From assembly GCF_037943105.1 (NCBI RefSeq), contig NZ_CP149803.1, positions 3,514,001-3,578,000 of the forward strand: DNA of 64,000 nt, in the 5' to 3' direction. The notes below the pieces were generated by a model. The model worked only from the letters and a program-made list of their open reading frames with translations, made no database searches and was not told the origin of the DNA. This document shows positions 24,329 through 30,866 of this stretch, in pieces. Origin of the DNA: Pseudomonas sp. TMP9 (GTDB lineage Bacteria; Pseudomonadota; Gammaproteobacteria; Pseudomonadales; Pseudomonadaceae). Numbering within the stretch: position 1 is the stretch's first letter; every line of letters begins with the position of its first letter. The position numbers and the translations under genes are program-made.

Positions 24329-24790
24329 TCAATACCAGTTCGGGTCTTTCTGCAGTTGCTCAAGCAGCAACTGTTGGACCGCTTCATCCGGCTCGCCTAA
24401 CCAACGCAGCGTGGCGTGCTGGCTGGGCGCGCGATCGGCTGGCAAACCGGCCGGCAGTTGCACATACAGTGCGTAAGCGTTGTCTTTGTCCCACGTGAAT
24501 GCGACGTACAGGCGCTGATCAAAGCAGTTTTGCGCTGGGCATAGCTCGCCCACCAAGTAGTTATCGCCATCATCTTCTAAACCCTGCATCGGGCTGGCGA
24601 CGCCGCTCAGGTTCATCACCCAATCCGGCAGGCGGCTCTCGCCTTCCAGCAGTTCTTGCCACGTTTCTTGGTATGCCACGTCGCTGGAGAGCAATTCATT
24701 GAGGTGGAATTGCGCATCGGTATCGGCCGCTAGAGCTGCCGCGCTGCCGCTTAGCACCCAGGCTGCCAGCAGAGTCTTGAGAGCACGCAT
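24329..24790 (-). CDS. Ivy-family periplasmic protein (lysozyme inhibitor-like), copy 1
   Basis: A 153-residue protein with signal peptide (cleavage near AAALAAD). The mature part aligns with inhibitor of vertebrate lysozyme: LPDWVMNLSG, then YLVGELCPAQNCFDQRLYVAF. Ivy proteins carry a Cys-flanked loop CKPHDC that plugs the lysozyme active site; here the loop is CPAQNC, with both Cys kept but the Lys and His lost. It probably corresponds to the second P. aeruginosa Ivy protein, which I recall lies beside algB and does not inhibit lysozyme well. It is cotranscribed with DUF1328 copy 1 (9-bp gap). Confidence 0.75.
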   Translation of the reverse strand: MRALKTLLAAWVLSGSAAALAADTDAQFHLNELLSSDVAYQETWQELLEGESRLPDWVMNLSGVASPMQGLEDDGDNYLVGELCPAQNCFDQRLYVAFTWDKDNAYALYVQLPAGLPADRAPSQHATLRWLGEPDEAVQQLLLEQLQKDPNWY

Positions 24791-24799
24791 GACAGCTCC

Positions 24800-24964
24800 T
24801 TAGCCTTTGGGGCGACGGCCCATGATGAACGAGACGATGAACAGCACCAGAAACACCAGGAACAGAATTTTCGCGATCCCGGTGGCGGTGCCAGCGATAC
24901 CACCGAAGCCCAATACGGCGGCGATGATGGCAATAATCAGAAAGGTAATAGCCCAACTCAACAT
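24800..24964 (-). CDS. DUF1328 small membrane protein, copy 1
   Basis: A 54-residue protein, almost entirely two TM helices ([20 protein letters not shown] and [15 protein letters not shown]), ending in GRRPKG. It is the YtjA/DUF1328 family, linked with envelope and osmotic stress in enterobacteria, mechanism unknown. AAGGAGA precedes the ATG. It is the first gene after a candidate sigma-54 promoter about 115 bp upstream and is nearly identical to copy 2 at 25.9 kb (53 of 54 residues). Confidence 0.88.
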
Positions 24965-25078
24965 GGTGATTCTCCTTATATAAATCGAACTGCAACGGCT
25001 GTGCTGCTGTAGAACGAAGGCGCTTAAATACGCCCTCAACCGTTTTAGCGGGCTGCCGGAGCAACCTTATTAGGGTTA

Positions 25079-25095
25079 TTGCAGGGCTCGTGCCA
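25079..25095 (-). promoter_or_regulatory. Candidate sigma-54 (-24/-12) promoter for DUF1328 copy 1 and Ivy-like copy 1
   Basis: The minus strand reads TGGCACGAGCCCTGCAA, matching TGGCACG-N4-TTGCA with one mismatch. The invariant GG (25094-25093) and GC (25082-25081) are exactly 10 nt apart. The predicted start near 25069 leaves a leader of about 105 nt before DUF1328. Paired palindromes lie 72 and 103 bp upstream of the GG. Confidence 0.7.
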
Positions 25096-25160
25096 GCTTT
25101 TAATAACTTTAAAATTGTTATATTTCAGTTACTTACTGCGAATCTGCAAATGTTAATACG

Positions 25161-25202
25161 TGCATGCTGCATGATCGCCAGCTTTTCACCGTGCAACTTG
25201 CA
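25161..25202. promoter_or_regulatory. Paired TGCA-N3-TGCA palindromes, candidate activator (UAS) sites
   Basis: Site 1 is TGCATGCTGCA (25161-25171). Site 2 is the longer perfect palindrome CCGTGCAACTTGCACGG, core 25192-25202. Centres are 31 bp apart, about three helical turns. They lie upstream of the minus-strand sigma-54-like promoter, in the normal range for enhancer sites. The same layout occurs at 27640-27681. Confidence 0.65.
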
Positions 25203-25315
25203 CGGCGGTGTTACGCAGGTGCATCTGGCTGAGTCTTTGGCACGAATGCGCGTGTGGATAAATTAAGAAGCGACAGGTCGCGCTGCCCAAGCCAGGCATT
25301 CGCTGAGAAGAGAAG

Positions 25316-25334
25316 ATGAGATGAGATGAGATGA
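25316..25334 (+). repeat. Short tandem repeat (ATGAG, 3.8 copies)
   Basis: Three perfect ATGAG units plus ATGA, within a purine-rich run starting near 25307. It is non-coding in this reading. Confidence 0.8.
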
Positions 25335-25476
25335 ATAGAGAAAGTCGGGCGCCGTAAAAACCACGCAGTGCGGGGCCGGGCGAGGAATGTTCAGTGCATG
25401 AGAAACGCTTGCAGCAGAGCGACGCGGTGTTTCGGCAGCCTGCACGCTCTACCGTGCTCAGGCAATGCAGCTAAAG

Positions 25477-25875
25477 CTAAAAACTAAACCGCTGCGCTGT
25501 GGCGGCGTCAGGCTGAGCAGACCGCGGCAACGAAGTGTGGCGGACCTGCGCTAAGCCATTAGGCTGTTGCGCAGCGTGTTCATAGTCGTCAGCAAAAGAC
25601 GGCGAGTAGGAGTTAAGCCCCGGCACCCGGGCGCATTGCAGTTGTGCGCACATCCCTGCCCAAGGTCGCTCTTGCTCAAGCACCAGCACCGTACCCGTCA
25701 GGTTGCGCATCCACTGCGGCCACGCATGTTCAACGTGACGGATGGCGGGCCATCCTTGGGTCAAAACGGGTGCGTAAGCAGGTTCAACAGCCAAAGGCTG
25801 TGGGTTGTCGGCGGCCAAAGCCGCCGCACTGCCGCCCAGCATCAGGGCGACAAGCAGCGTCTTAACACAATGCAT
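25477..25875 (-). CDS. Divergent Ivy-like periplasmic protein, copy 2
   Basis: A 132-residue protein with a signal peptide almost the same as copy 1 (VKTLLVALMLGGSAAALAAD). The mature part keeps WPQWMRNLTG and a two-cysteine loop CAQLQC, but the rest has diverged strongly. It still aligns colinearly to the end (HTSLPRSAQPDAATAQ against HATLRWLGEPDEAVQQ of copy 1), so it is not an obvious frameshift. The ATG at 25875 has TAGGAG 8 bp upstream, 11 bp after DUF1328 copy 2. It may be a diverging paralogue or a gene in early decay. The inhibitory Lys/His loop is absent here too. Confidence 0.6.
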   Translation of the reverse strand: MHCVKTLLVALMLGGSAAALAADNPQPLAVEPAYAPVLTQGWPAIRHVEHAWPQWMRNLTGTVLVLEQERPWAGMCAQLQCARVPGLNSYSPSFADDYEHAAQQPNGLAQVRHTSLPRSAQPDAATAQRFSF

Positions 25876-25886
25876 GCTGTGCGCTC

Positions 25887-26051
25887 CTACACCTTTGGGC
25901 GACGGCCCATGATGAACGAGACAATAAACAGCACCAAAAACACCAAGAATAGGATTTTCGCGATCCCGGTGGCGGTGCCAGCGATGCCGCCAAAGCCCAG
26001 TACCGCGGCGATGATGGCAATAATCAAAAAGGTAATAGCCCAACTCAACAT
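25887..26051 (-). CDS. DUF1328 small membrane protein, copy 2
   Basis: A 54-residue two-helix protein identical to copy 1 except for the last residue (GRRPKV). The DNA is also very similar (I estimate about 90%), including the ribosome site and 15 bp around the start. This indicates recent duplication or gene conversion. It lies 94 bp downstream of the DUF2383 gene and directly before Ivy-like copy 2, so it probably belongs to the BON-DUF2383 operon. Confidence 0.88.
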
Positions 26052-26145
26052 GGTGATTCTCCTTGGGTAAAAAACCCTTTGCGATGAAACGGCGGCACGA
26101 CGTGCAGCAGGTGAGGAGCACAGCACACGCCGCGCCCCTGATGCC

Positions 26146-26580
26146 TTATTGCATAGACTGCTTGAGGTCACGCATGCGGTCATGGTTGGCGCGCACAGTC
26201 GGCATTTGCAGGGCAAGCAGCGCCTGCACATCCGGATCAGCGTCTTTCAGTACATCTTCAAACGCGTGCAGGATGCGATCTTCGGCCTCCTCCAACTGCG
26301 CCACGTACGTGGCCGCTTCATCGCTGACCAAGGCGGCCTTAGTGTCGGCGTATACCTGACGCAGCTTGCCCACCATGGTGCCGCCATCCGCTGGCTTTTC
26401 ATTGTTAGCGCTGACCTTTACGGCCAAGGCACTGATCAGCTCTTTCTTGCTCTGCGACATGTCGCGGAACAGCACTTTTAGGCGCACATCTTTCACTTCA
26501 TCGTGGGCGTGCTGATAAAAGCGCTGACCATCACGAGTGATTTCGATTAGCTCGTTCAGTTGCTGGATTTTGTCAGTCAT
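26146..26580 (-). CDS. DUF2383 / PA2169-family four-helix-bundle protein
   Basis: A 144-residue soluble, highly helical protein. The PA2169-type features are [22 protein letters not shown] at the start and a ferritin-like pattern of Glu/His residues ([23 protein letters not shown]). Members are stress-induced and of unknown function; a ferritin-like metal site is only an inference. AGGAGAG precedes the ATG. It follows the BON-domain gene by 80 bp on the same strand. Confidence 0.85.
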
Positions 26581-26660
26581 GGTGACTCTCCTCTGGCTGT
26601 AACAGCGGCGATAACCGCCTTAAAAGTAGGCTGCACTGGGTAACAGGCAGCCCGAATGGC

Positions 26661-27497
26661 TTAGCTTTTGATGCGCAGCGCGTCAGCATCTACACCGCGA
26701 ACGCCACGGATATTGCGGGCCGTTTCTACGGCCAGCTGCTTTTCAGCGTCGCTCAATACATTGCCGCTCAGGCTGACCATGCCCTTCACGGTTTCCACCG
26801 TGATGTCCAAGCCATCAAGGTTGCGGCTGTAGATCAGGCTGGATTTCACCTTGCTGCTGATCCAGGCATCACTGATCGCCACACCGGTGTCATCCGCTGC
26901 GTTCTGCGCTTTGGCGGCAGCGGTGTTGCCAGCGCTGACGCTGAGCAGGTTATTCACCTCACGCACACCGTCCGTGTTGGCCGCCAGTCGACCGGCCAGC
27001 TCCTTGGCCTCGGCGGTTTGCGCGCTGCCGTTGAGGCTGACCATGCCGTTGACCGCACTGACATCAATATCCAGGCCTTCGGTATTGCTGTTCCACAGCA
27101 GTTTGGATTTCACCGTGGCCACCAGCGTCGCGTCATCAAAACGCTGCGACATGGATGGCTCGCTGCCGGCTTTGGCTTCAAAGTCAGGGTCGAGGGTCAG
27201 CTGGTTATCCACCTTGGTGACCCCCTCGATGCCCAGCGCAATTTGTTCAGCCAGGTCGCGCTCCACATCGGTTTCAACCTTACCGGTCAGCTTGGCGCTA
27301 CCGCTTTCCACGTCCACATCAATGGTGAAGGGGTTGAGGTGGCGGTTGAGCGCAAATGCAGTCCAGATTGAGCCTTCTTGGCGCGCTTCGGTGAGGTCGC
27401 TGCGGGTAGAGCTTTCAGCGGCAAACGCACTGATGGGCGTCAGACCGATCAAGCCGGCTGTCGCCATGGCCAAGGTCAGCTTTTTAAATGTGTGCAT
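26661..27497 (-). CDS. Periplasmic protein with three BON domains (OsmY-like)
   Basis: A 278-residue protein with a signal peptide (ending ISAFAAE) and three BON domains at about 38-103, 121-188 and 208-276, each with the VxGMVSLxG-type core. BON domains bind phospholipid surfaces; OsmY-like proteins respond to osmotic and envelope stress and can act as periplasmic chaperones. GGAGGAA precedes the ATG. A sigma-54-like promoter lies about 60 bp upstream, and the gene is divergent from algB. It heads a probable operon with DUF2383, DUF1328 copy 2 and Ivy-like copy 2. Confidence 0.88.
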   Translation of the reverse strand: MHTFKKLTLAMATAGLIGLTPISAFAAESSTRSDLTEARQEGSIWTAFALNRHLNPFTIDVDVESGSAKLTGKVETDVERDLAEQIALGIEGVTKVDNQLTLDPDFEAKAGSEPSMSQRFDDATLVATVKSKLLWNSNTEGLDIDVSAVNGMVSLNGSAQTAEAKELAGRLAANTDGVREVNNLLSVSAGNTAAAKAQNAADDTGVAISDAWISSKVKSSLIYSRNLDGLDITVETVKGMVSLSGNVLSDAEKQLAVETARNIRGVRGVDADALRIKS

Positions 27498-27555
27498 GGC
27501 AGTTCCTCCAATGGATAGTGCTCAAGCGGCTGTTTTCGCCGCACCTACCCTTACA

Positions 27556-27572
27556 TCGCAAGCACCATGCCA
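27556..27572 (-). promoter_or_regulatory. Candidate sigma-54 (-24/-12) promoter for the BON operon
   Basis: The minus strand reads TGGCATGGTGCTTGCGA, matching TGGCAYR-N4-TTGC, with GG (27571-27570) and GC (27559-27558) exactly 10 nt apart. The predicted start near 27546 leaves a leader of about 50 nt. Confidence 0.75.
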
Positions 27573-27639
27573 GCCTTTAAAATTAAAATTAACCTATACA
27601 TATCAATTAGTTAACCAATAATCAGAACCACTCTGGACG

Positions 27640-27681
27640 TGCAGCTTGCATGGTCTGTACAAAGCAGCCGTGCAACTTGCA
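27640..27681. promoter_or_regulatory. Paired TGCA-N3-TGCA palindromes between algB and the BON operon
   Basis: Sites are TGCAGCTTGCA (27640-27650) and TGCAACTTGCA (27671-27681, extended CGTGCAACTTGCACG). Centres are 31 bp apart, identical to the pair at 25161-25202, and lie 75 and 106 bp upstream of the GG of the BON promoter. They are also 60-100 bp upstream of the algB start and could affect it. Confidence 0.7.
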
Positions 27682-27741
27682 CGACACAACGTGGACTAAC
27701 CTTGAGCACGACGTACTGCCGAATGGCTCAAGGAGATGCAC

Positions 27742-29094
27742 ATGCACACACGCACAGAGGAACACAGCCTCGGACGTATCCTGCTGGTCGATGACGAACC
27801 CGCAATCCTGCGTACCTTCCGTTATTGCCTAGAAGACGCGGGCTACCATGTCAGCACCGCTAATAGCGCAACCCAAGCCGATAGCCTATTGCTGCGCCAC
27901 GTGTTCGACCTGTGCTTTCTCGACCTGCGTTTGGGCGCGGATGATGGCTTGGAGGTGCTGGCGCAGATGCGCTTACAAGCGCCATGGATGCGTGTGGTCA
28001 TCGTCACCGCGCACTCAGCGGTCGACAGTGCGGTTGATGCCATCCAAGCGGGCGCTGCAGATTATTTGGTTAAACCTTGCAGCCCCGAACTGCTGCGCTT
28101 GGCCGCTGCCAAACAGCTGGAAGCCCGTCAGTTAAGCGAGCGCTTGGAGCGTTTAGAAGGGTACGTGCGCAAACCCGGCGACGGCCTCGACTCACAGAGC
28201 CCAGCATTGATGGCAGTGCTGCAAACGGCCAAACAGGTGGCTGACACCGATGCCAATATTCTGATTCTCGGCGAGTCCGGCACCGGCAAGGGCGAGTTGG
28301 CGCAAGCTATTCATCGTTGGAGCAAGCGCGCAAAAAAATCCTGCATCACCATCAACTGCCCGTCGTTGACTGCCGAGCTGATGGAAAGTGAGTTGTTCGG
28401 GCATAACCGCGGCGCATTTACTGGCGCCAGTGAAAGCACCTTGGGCCGGGTTAACCAGGCCGATGGCGGCACATTGTTCCTCGATGAAATTGGCGACTTC
28501 CCGCTGATCTTGCAGCCCAAGCTGCTGCGCTTTATCCAAGACAAAGAATACGAACGTATTGGCGACCCGGTGACGCGTCAGGCCGATGTGCGCATCCTTG
28601 CGGCCACTAACCTGAATCTGGGTGAGATGGTCCAAGACGGGCGCTTTCGCGAAGACCTGCTCTATCGCCTGAACGTCATCACCCTGACCCTGCCGCCCCT
28701 GCGCGAGCGCCGCGAGGATATTGTTGATTTAGCCGAGCGCTTCCTCGCGCGCTTTGTAGTGGATTACACACGCCCAGCGCGCCAGTTCAGTGATGAAGCG
28801 CGCGACGCGCTGCTCAGCTACGCCTGGCCGGGCAATATCCGTGAGCTGCGCAATGTGATCGAGCGCGCCAGCATCATCTGCACTGAGGAGCACGTCCAGC
28901 CCAGCCATTTAGGCTTGTGCCCGCAGGCCGGCCTGAATGCGCCGCAAGTCGGTGATCTGCTGAGCTTGGAAGCACTGGAAAGAGCCCACATCAGCGCGGT
29001 GATGGCCAGCAGCGAGAGCCTCGACCAAGCGGCAAAAACCCTTGGTATTGATGCCTCAACCCTGTACCGCAAACGCAAGCAGCTCAGCTTATGA
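27742..29094 (+). CDS. algB: Sigma-54-type response regulator AlgB
   Basis: A 450-residue NtrC-family regulator. It has a receiver domain with VDDE and phospho-acceptor Asp near residue 61 (FLDLRLG), a AAA+ domain with Walker A GESGTGKG, the sigma-54-contacting loop GAFTGA and Walker B GGTLFLDEIGD, and a Fis-type helix-turn-helix at the C-terminus (LDQAAKTLGIDASTLYRKRKQ). The sequence follows P. aeruginosa AlgB, which controls alginate and other genes, is dephosphorylated by KinB and can receive phosphate from the photoreceptor BphP. ATG at 27736 abuts the ribosome site; the ATG at 27742 is 6 bp from AAGGAG and is preferred. The stop overlaps kinB as ATGA. Confidence 0.94.
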   Translation: MHTRTEEHSLGRILLVDDEPAILRTFRYCLEDAGYHVSTANSATQADSLLLRHVFDLCFLDLRLGADDGLEVLAQMRLQAPWMRVVIVTAHSAVDSAVDAIQAGAADYLVKPCSPELLRLAAAKQLEARQLSERLERLEGYVRKPGDGLDSQSPALMAVLQTAKQVADTDANILILGESGTGKGELAQAIHRWSKRAKKSCITINCPSLTAELMESELFGHNRGAFTGASESTLGRVNQADGGTLFLDEIGDFPLILQPKLLRFIQDKEYERIGDPVTRQADVRILAATNLNLGEMVQDGRFREDLLYRLNVITLTLPPLRERREDIVDLAERFLARFVVDYTRPARQFSDEARDALLSYAWPGNIRELRNVIERASIICTEEHVQPSHLGLCPQAGLNAPQVGDLLSLEALERAHISAVMASSESLDQAAKTLGIDASTLYRKRKQLSL

Positions 29095-30866
29095 ACTTGC
29101 GCAGCCGACTGTTTATCAGCAGCAGTGCGCTGGTGACCGTCGCCTTGGTCGGGTTGCTCTTGGGCATGTTCAGCGTGCTGCAGCTGACTCAAGTGCAGAG
29201 CCAAGCGATGACGCGCAACCTGCAGATTATTGATGCAAGCCTAGGCTTGCGTCAGGAGCTGGGTAAGCAGGTGAGTTTGCTGCTCGCTGAAAACCTCGAC
29301 CGCGAGGCGCTGAAAATCTCCGATCAGCAATTCAACTATTGGCTGCAACGCGCCGCCGAAAGCGCCACCGATGAAAGCGACCACCAAACGATTGCTGAGG
29401 TCGAGCGCAGCTACGCCACCTTCGATGACCTGCTGGCCAACCCAACGAATGTACGCAGCGAGTTGCTCAATAATGACCGCTTCGGCAGCGCCATCGATGA
29501 CCTGCGCAATCGCCTCAACGCCCTGCAAAGTCGCTATATCGATGCCGTGGAGTTGGAGGAGGTGCGCACCCGCGAACGCGCGTGGTTGATCGCCGGGCTG
29601 ATCGGGCTGATCGGCCTGGCCGTGCTGGTGATTGGCTTTGTCACCGCCAACAGCATCGCCCAACGTTTTGGCCGGCCAATTGAGGCGCTGGCACAGGCCG
29701 CCGACCAGATCGGCCAGGGTGATTTTCAAGTCACTCTGCCCCTGACCCCGGTAGCGGAAATATCGGCCCTGAGCCAGCGGTTCGGCCTGATGGCCGAATC
29801 CTTACGTGAATTTAAAAACAGTGATATGGCGGCGTTGCAGGCTGAGCAGCGGCGCCTACAGGCGGTACTCGATAGCATTGATGATGGCTTGCTGATCTTC
29901 GATTGCGCCGGCCGCGTTGAGCACGTTAACCCGGTGGCGCAACGCCAGCTGGACTGGGGCCAGGAACAGCTCGGGCAAACCTTGGATGTGGCTCTGCAGC
30001 GCGCTGACTTAGCTGATCAGGTGCGGCATATTTTGCAGGGTGCAAATATCGACGAAACCCTGCCTGATCTGCAGGTGCAGATCGACGGCGAAAACCGTTT
30101 GTTGGCGTACAGCCTGTCCGGGGTGAGCCACAGCGAGGGGCGCTTAATGTGCGCCGTAATGGTGCTGCGCGATGTGACTGAGCAACGCGCCTTTGAGCGC
30201 GTGCGCAGCGAGTTTGTGCTGCGCGCCTCGCATGAGCTGCGCACCCCGGTCACTGGCATGCTAATGGCGTTTTCACTGCTGCAGGAGCGTGTGCAGTTCG
30301 CCGCCGAATCGCGCGAAACGGATCTGCTGAATACCGTGGATGAAGAAATGCACCGCCTGCTAAAGCTGATCAACGACCTGCTAAATTTCTCCCGCTACCA
30401 GAACGGCCTGCAAACTTTGGAGTTGTCCGCCTGCGCGCTAGAGCCCCTGCTGCTGCAAACTCAGCAGCGCTTTAGCGGGCAAGCAGCAGAGTTAATGGTG
30501 GGCTTGGAGTGCGAGGTGCACAACGAACTGCCGGACATACAGATTGACCGGCTGCAGATTGAGCGAGTGCTGGATAACCTGATCGCCAACGCCCTGCGCC
30601 ACTGCCCGCTCGGTGGGCAAATCCGCCTGCAGGCGCGGCATCAAGACCAGCGGGTGGTGCTTAGCGTGGCCGACAATGGCGATGGCATTCCTTACAGCCA
30701 GCAAACACGGATCTTTGAACCCTTTGTGCAAATCAGCCGCAAGAAAGGTGGCGCCGGGCTTGGCCTGGCCCTGTGCAAAGAAATCGTCCAGCTGCATGGC
30801 GGGCAAATCGGCGTGCACTCACGCGTCGGCCAAGGCGCACAGTTCTATGTCGCATTGCCGGTGTGA
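29091..30866 (+). CDS. kinB: Sensor histidine kinase/phosphatase KinB
   Basis: A 591-residue inner-membrane kinase. Order of parts: TM1 (about 9-32), periplasmic helical sensor domain, TM2 (about 165-188), HAMP, a PAS domain (LDSIDDGLLIFDCAGRVEHVNP), HisKA with phospho-acceptor His near residue 381 (SHELRTPVTGM), and a HATPase domain (NALRH, ADNGDGIP, GAGLGLALCKEIV). The cognate regulator AlgB is encoded directly upstream with a 4-bp overlap. In P. aeruginosa KinB acts mainly as the AlgB phosphatase. It converges on ampDh2 with 11 bp between stops. Confidence 0.95.
   Translation: MNLRSRLFISSSALVTVALVGLLLGMFSVLQLTQVQSQAMTRNLQIIDASLGLRQELGKQVSLLLAENLDREALKISDQQFNYWLQRAAESATDESDHQTIAEVERSYATFDDLLANPTNVRSELLNNDRFGSAIDDLRNRLNALQSRYIDAVELEEVRTRERAWLIAGLIGLIGLAVLVIGFVTANSIAQRFGRPIEALAQAADQIGQGDFQVTLPLTPVAEISALSQRFGLMAESLREFKNSDMAALQAEQRRLQAVLDSIDDGLLIFDCAGRVEHVNPVAQRQLDWGQEQLGQTLDVALQRADLADQVRHILQGANIDETLPDLQVQIDGENRLLAYSLSGVSHSEGRLMCAVMVLRDVTEQRAFERVRSEFVLRASHELRTPVTGMLMAFSLLQERVQFAAESRETDLLNTVDEEMHRLLKLINDLLNFSRYQNGLQTLELSACALEPLLLQTQQRFSGQAAELMVGLECEVHNELPDIQIDRLQIERVLDNLIANALRHCPLGGQIRLQARHQDQRVVLSVADNGDGIPYSQQTRIFEPFVQISRKKGGAGLGLALCKEIVQLHGGQIGVHSRVGQGAQFYVALPV

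Follow-up and report, generated by a model that had tools for sequence, protein, structure and literature searches.

What does the response regulator AlgB control through the sigma-54 contact loop that it has retained? AlgB is a regulator of alginate and virulence which keeps this loop although its classical target, algD, has an AlgU promoter, and the question is posed by the algB locus of Pseudomonas sp. TMP9, where two predicted sigma-54 promoters, each preceded by a pair of palindromes, lie beside the gene. The window analysed here is a stretch of 64,000 nucleotides (NZ_CP149803.1, positions 3,514,001-3,578,000), and positions given below without a prefix are window coordinates. On the grounds of genome comparison it is highly probable that both sites belong to an AlgB-sigma-54 regulon conserved across those Pseudomonadaceae that keep AlgB, and the window sites are very probably AlgB's own control sites. 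The elements concerned, including candidate sites for integration host factor (IHF), are the following.

27556..27572, minus strand: sigma-54 promoter (-24/-12) of the BON-DUF2383-DUF1328-Ivy' unit, TGGCATGGTGCTTGCGA, by direct reading; match 27553-27684 to a promoter profile of which it is itself a row, 71.5 bits
27601..27613, minus strand: IHF-like site TAACTAATTGATA, 9/9 positions of YAAN4TTGATW
27640..27650, unstranded: promoter-proximal AlgB-type palindrome TGCAGCTTGCA, by pattern search
27671..27681, unstranded: promoter-distal AlgB-type palindrome TGCAACTTGCA, on the algB side, 31 bp from the proximal one, by pattern search
25079..25095, minus strand: sigma-54 promoter of the DUF1328-Ivy unit, TGGCACGAGCCCTGCAA, by direct reading; match 25072-25204 to the same profile, of which it is likewise a row, 69.4 bits
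25123..25135, minus strand: IHF-like site TAAGTAACTGAAA, 7/9 positions of YAAN4TTGATW
25161..25171, unstranded: promoter-proximal AlgB-type palindrome TGCATGCTGCA, by pattern search
25192..25202, unstranded: promoter-distal AlgB-type palindrome TGCAACTTGCA, 31 bp from the proximal one, by pattern search
27736..29094, plus strand: algB, NtrC-type response regulator (PF00072, PF00158, PF02954; receiver, AAA+, Fis-type helix-turn-helix, HTH; GAFTGA intact)
29091..30866, plus strand: kinB, sensor kinase with KinB sensor domain (PF16767, E 1.1e-28)

Both promoters can be read directly on the minus strand where a previous sequence-only reading of the window had placed them, with GG-N10-GC in a TGGCAY / TTGC-like context, and a pattern search confirmed the TGCA-N3-TGCA pairs that it had described upstream of each, with centres 31 bp apart. 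Its distances from the palindrome centres to the first G of the GG were correct for the promoter at 25095 (72/103 bp), but those for the promoter at 27572, given as 75/106 bp, were measured at one less, 74/105 bp. The two promoter regions were said to differ outside these elements, and indeed little common sequence was found there, namely 16 identical bp at the palindrome and a stretch of 26 bp at 81% (E 0.011). The GAFTGA loop of AlgB, also called intact, is identical in 8/8 aligned sequences, as are the HTH and the receiver aspartate; the latter is presumably the phospho-acceptor, as assigned by position. The name AlgB is based on linkage to a KinB-domain kinase: a kinB match follows algB in 29/29 loci. 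Among the 25 NCBIfam models listed, of 111, none reaches its cut-off with this protein.

Single TGCA-N3-TGCA sites are not rare, so that one alone says little: the window holds 8 where 4.07 are expected, and 6/100 shuffles reach at least 8. Pairs number 2 in the window and none in 400 Markov-1 shuffles. A genome scan for spaced pairs had been proposed, and with a gap of 18-22 it returned 3 in the whole 3.75-Mb genome, two of them those in the window, and 0 for the reversed-pattern control. The third pair, C1:367134-367176, precedes a chemoreceptor-like gene; its palindromes are 32 bp apart, and the sigma-54-like site, at 79 bp, is weak. As none of the three profile matches of the genome at E <= 1e-7 falls on this pair, it was not counted as a regulon member. 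In a search of the genus, at least one palindrome pair was found in 169/199 genomes, and 28 of 30 fetched pair loci carry a strong sigma-54 element (at least 18 of 20.8 by simple weights devised for this analysis) whose distance from the proximal centre is either 62 or 71-74 bp, the two options being separated by roughly one turn of the helix. The other two loci (L017 and L028) have no promoter at the expected distance and have the appearance of repeat elements. In the alignment of 49 promoters the TGCA half-sites, GGCA and TGC are invariant, these being mostly positions that the searches had required beforehand. When the two promoters of this genome and one of a close relative were set aside, a profile hidden Markov model (HMM) of the remaining 46 recovered the 25095 promoter at E 9e-23 and the 27572 promoter at E 6e-22.

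The IHF consensus is WATCAAN4TTR (reverse YAAN4TTGATW), and a score of 8-9 of 9 on this pattern is reached in 62/69 promoters as against 5.7% of shuffled linkers, the best site lying 24-26 bp past the proximal palindrome in 67/69. These 69 promoters are what remains of 80 after removal of 11 opposite-strand regular-expression matches, a few having been kept with the GG called some bases off register, and 49 of them were used for the profile. Unlike the half-sites and the promoter core, the IHF-like site was not demanded by the searches, and the predicted module includes it at a fixed place between enhancer and promoter.

The distribution of this module is what ties it to AlgB. The exact pattern (pair and promoter), sought without reference to AlgB, was present in 9/244 genomes drawn from the order, all 9 in the Pseudomonadaceae, a family with 10 members in that draw. 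A second draw comprised 148 Pseudomonadaceae genomes, with AlgB called at E <= 1e-120 in 109 and absent in 39; here the exact pattern occurred in 76/109 genomes with AlgB and in 0/39 without it (117 hits), while the reversed-pattern control gave 0 matches in the 148 genomes. Upstream of algB, no more than 1.5 kb away, are 51 of the 117 hits, every one divergent from it, and the exact module is found at most 150 bp from algB in 49 genomes (49 hits). With the module profile at E <= 1e-7, matches were obtained in 108/109 genomes with AlgB and in 0/39 genomes lacking it; the sequence-only reading had made itself dependent on conservation of the sites in related genomes, and conserved they are. In six genera where both states occur, the module is present in 54/55 genomes with AlgB and absent in 9/9 without, a comparison that guards only partially against shared ancestry. 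A loose scan of 20 genomes gave near-whole-model matches in 11/11 with AlgB; among the matches listed for the 9 genomes lacking AlgB, none begins before model position 21 and the best E is 7e-7. The distal palindrome corresponds to about model positions 4-14.

Could another sigma-54 activator bind the palindromes, with AlgB merely a neighbour? Eleven proteins with a strong sigma-54 activator domain are encoded in this genome, one of them without a GAFTGA-type loop by pattern, and AcoR-like, TyrR-like and CbrB proteins are the candidates to be weighed. The genome G520, of the same genus, has no AlgB and no profile match, and 8/11 of the activator-type proteins have reciprocal best partners in it at 71-93% identity; since these eight are present there without the module, AlgB, the TyrR-like and the AcoR-like protein remain. 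Among 13 module genomes with AlgB, the TyrR-like protein has no close counterpart in four (best 44-45%; G366, G291, G535 and G449) and the AcoR-like protein none in one (best 40%; G449), and all four genomes carry full modules; both proteins were rejected as binders because they are missing from module-bearing genomes. CbrB was rejected in the same role on the comparison with G520 and because its published sites, in the accessible part of the source, differ from the palindromes (PMC6296734). The module, with its elements, geometry and conservation, co-occurs with AlgB but with none of the genome's other activator-type proteins, and as far as these genome comparisons reach AlgB alone of the eleven fits presence and absence both. 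The proposals that these are sigma-54 promoters with paired activator sites, and that AlgB is the activator of both units, are supported by the 108/109 versus 0/39 distribution and, for AlgB, by the misfit of the other 10 activators. Partial profile matches, covering the IHF and sigma-54 part, adjoin other sigma-54 activator genes at C1:893159-893226 (next to the activator gene at 893840), C1:3586959-3587018 and C1:236861-236952, and are probably promoters served by those activators.

Several observations weigh against the assignment to AlgB. The exact pattern is missing from 33/109 genomes with AlgB, 66/117 exact hits lie away from algB, and one genome with AlgB (G484) has no profile match at the cut-off; moreover, some profile rows derive from algB loci, and genes adjoining algB may go missing along with it. 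In G520 the reciprocal partner of the AcoR-like protein reaches no more than 39% and was not counted as an orthologue; otherwise the exclusion of this protein hangs on the single genome G449. Deletion of IHF barely affected the alginate operon, which is a different promoter, according to the portion of PMC9431422 available, and in the corresponding portion of PMC10418997 it is unphosphorylated AlgB that activates algD, a point that concerns the acting form. The 66 distant hits would also suit another activator. The recognition helix of the AcoR-like protein ends in NTLYRKLRK, similar to STLYRKRK of AlgB, and the protein occurs at >=57% in 12/13 module-bearing genomes. Against this stand the eight candidates shared with module-free G520, the absences of the TyrR-like and AcoR-like proteins from genomes with the module, the dissimilar CbrB sites and the placement of the exact module within 150 bp of algB in 49 genomes, and control by an activator other than AlgB is in our estimation unlikely.

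Slightly less credible again is the idea that a non-activator, such as a repressor or nucleoid protein, uses the palindromes as its operators and that the sigma-54 promoters nearby are ordinary ones. It draws on the fact that TGCA-N3-TGCA is a generic dyad whose single sites are some twofold more frequent in the window than chance would give, but the 31-bp spacing is fixed and the distance to the GG is 62 or 71-74 bp in 28/30 loci, as looping activators show, and the co-occurrence of the module with AlgB is near-complete.

A third explanation concerns the genes behind the promoters. The first unit is ordered BON-DUF2383-DUF1328-diverged Ivy and the second DUF1328-Ivy, with algB and kinB on the opposite strand.

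26661..27497, minus strand: target gene 1, three-BON-domain protein, OsmY-like (PF04972 in 3 stretches; OsmY model below its cut-off)
26146..26580, minus strand: target gene 2, DUF2383 / PA2169-family four-helix bundle (PF09537; TIGR02284 above cut-off)
25887..26051, minus strand: target gene 3, DUF1328 membrane microprotein (PF07043)
25477..25875, minus strand: target gene 4, diverged Ivy copy (38% identity to Ivy over 68 aa, E 2e-4)
24800..24961, minus strand: second unit, DUF1328 membrane microprotein (PF07043)
24329..24790, minus strand: second unit, Ivy-family lysozyme inhibitor (PF08816, E 8.8e-42)

Both units had been described as ending in an Ivy-like gene, which is right for 24329-24790; the gene at 25477-25875, for which Pfam and NCBIfam gave no match, is a diverged copy, possibly in decay after duplication. 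It retains a signal-peptide-like start and a C-x4-C segment. The genes do hold a copied segment, the DUF1328 gene and the start of the Ivy gene being 84% identical between the two units over 258 bp, and the likeness of the promoters might have come from copying of this segment along with its promoter. Such an origin is contradicted by the placement of the segment, which closes one unit and opens the other, by promoter regions that share little beyond the elements, and by the same architecture before unrelated genes in other genomes; it was rejected and is very improbable, so that the view of the sequence-only reading that the shared geometry is not simple copying holds for the promoters. Chance motif matches, for which only the commonness of single sites speaks, are refuted by the shuffles, the reversed-pattern control and the family-wide conservation, and their likelihood is negligible. 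A short run of GAGAT-type repeats can be read at 25313-25336, upstream of the second promoter.

The regulon had been called local, and in this respect the earlier view was mistaken. Three profile matches at E <= 1e-7 are found in this genome, the two in the window and one elsewhere, C1:879829-879964, in front of genes for BON and CsbD proteins, and the profile-positive genomes have 1 to 8 matches each at this threshold. In other genomes the module stands before genes for BON, CsbD, DUF2383, DUF3509, DUF1652 and hemerythrin proteins, as well as for a protein of ~306 residues that is apparently membrane-bound and for small proteins of no assigned family. A profile search of named loci covered 34 of 80 fetched loci, 29 AlgB loci and 5 remote activator loci. 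In 29/29 AlgB loci, Stutzerimonas, Halopseudomonas and Nevskia included, the module lies on the strand opposite to algB at a distance of at most 1.5 kb; the 5 remote activator loci gave no profile match. Beyond the module a DUF1328 match was present in 29/29 AlgB loci (three of them weak, at 33-37%), usually with BON, DUF2383 or Ivy too. Two modules in a row occur in 11/29 AlgB loci, with BON or DUF2383 between them in 9/11, and the window layout is therefore an old theme; in the closest relatives (L173 and L174) all four genes share a single module. One Pseudomonas sp. locus carries, past the end of kinB, an almost complete second module (L217:9747-9878). The Nevskia locus (L227:5731-5844), with an AlgB 61% identical, shows a weaker module match (31.7 bits) with DUF1328-BON genes adjoining, and as Nevskia lies outside the Pseudomonadaceae, the circuit either predates that family or has undergone transfer.

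The algB-side palindrome of the first pair contains a further element.

27673..27699, plus strand: AlgU-like promoter element of algB, CAACTT at 27673-27678 (inside the palindrome), N16, ACTAA at 27695-27699, conserved in named loci

The consensus of AlgU (sigma-22) is GAACTT-N16/17-TCTGA, and compared with it CAACTT-N16-ACTAA has 5/6 positions at -35, the right spacing and a weak -10. CAACTT-N16-(A/C)CTAA precedes algB in 46/56 named algB loci, the other ten having variants or none, and the algB-side site that encloses CAACTT reads TGCAACTTGCA or, where decayed, TGCAACTTGCC; in P. fluorescens-type loci the CAACTT-bearing site stands apart from the divergent promoter's enhancer pair. Neither this overlap of palindrome and AlgU-like element nor the IHF-like site had figured in the sequence-only reading. 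Since the palindrome contains the -35-like CAACTT, bound AlgB should limit transcription of algB, and the overlap of palindrome and promoter suggests feedback on algB. A table in the accessible part of PMC7685553, for P. aeruginosa with lipoprotein transport blocked, lists 5.2/5.2 for algB and 4.2/4.4 for kinB.

The kind of control is already known, being that of NtrC-type sigma-54 activators, and the code of this regulon is unusually clear. The enteric glnA promoter with NtrC likewise combines an NtrC-type regulator, looping and a -24/-12 promoter preceded by two dimer palindromes that are separated by about three helical turns; in contrast, the half-site here is GTGCA-N3-TGCAC, the linker has an IHF-like site, and the targets are envelope and stress genes instead of nitrogen genes. 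The KinB-AlgB control of algD in P. aeruginosa has the same regulator and kinase, and IHF is named as a regulator of the alginate operon (PMC10418997, PMC9431422, both as excerpted); the output there is alginate, whereas the conserved outputs here would be predicted sigma-54 promoters of small envelope proteins. The CbrB-IHF-sigma-54 promoters of P. putida are also served by a Pseudomonas sigma-54 activator, with IHF placed between the promoter and the activator's sites, but the CbrB subsites, TGTTAC/GTAACA, are described in the accessible text as non-palindromic and variably spaced (PMC6296734). A 2021 atlas made by high-throughput systematic evolution of ligands by exponential enrichment (HT-SELEX) counts AlgB among its predicted regulators in the portion available (PMC8041468), and may thus contain an AlgB motif. 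The open-licence literature searched, in its accessible parts, holds no description of such an enhancer code or of these targets for AlgB.

Regarding alginate itself, this genome has no match to PF13372 (alginate export) at E <= 1e-20, in a search made for this family only and not for algD. Thirty-seven of the 109 genomes with AlgB, this one included, are without a PF13372 hit, and 25/37 have the exact module. PF13372 probably includes AlgE relatives, so its presence counts are upper bounds.

From sequence and its conservation we infer AlgB binding, IHF action, activation, autorepression and an input of envelope stress via AlgU, which would be connected as follows. AlgB dimers would occupy two palindromes of the CGTGCA-N3-TGCACG type, three helical turns (31 bp) apart; some 25 bp beyond, IHF would bend the DNA, and through its GAFTGA loop the AAA+ ring of AlgB would open sigma-54 RNA polymerase at a -24/-12 promoter whose distance to the proximal palindrome is about 62 or 71-74 bp. 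The outputs would be small envelope and stress proteins (BON, DUF2383, DUF1328 and Ivy; elsewhere CsbD, DUF3509, DUF1652 and hemerythrin). Under envelope stress AlgU may raise AlgB, which would then fire the divergent sigma-54 promoter and, by covering the -35 of algB, limit itself. We lean, with modest assurance, towards the wider view that the conserved, ancestral job of AlgB lies not in alginate but in a sigma-54 regulon whose products are small envelope and stress proteins, controlled through a fixed enhancer code (31-bp pair, IHF site, -24/-12). One operator would double as the -35 of algB's AlgU promoter, a single palindrome would thus bring together two alternative sigma factors, and AlgB would turn transcription away from its own gene and towards its targets.

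If this is true, a conserved sigma-54 regulon would explain the retention of AlgB's GAFTGA loop, and direct coupling of AlgU and sigma-54 is predicted at one operator. The sequence code would make AlgB targets readable from any Pseudomonas genome, and the DUF1328, DUF2383, DUF3509, DUF1652 and BON proteins would gain a common regulator and, probably, a common purpose.

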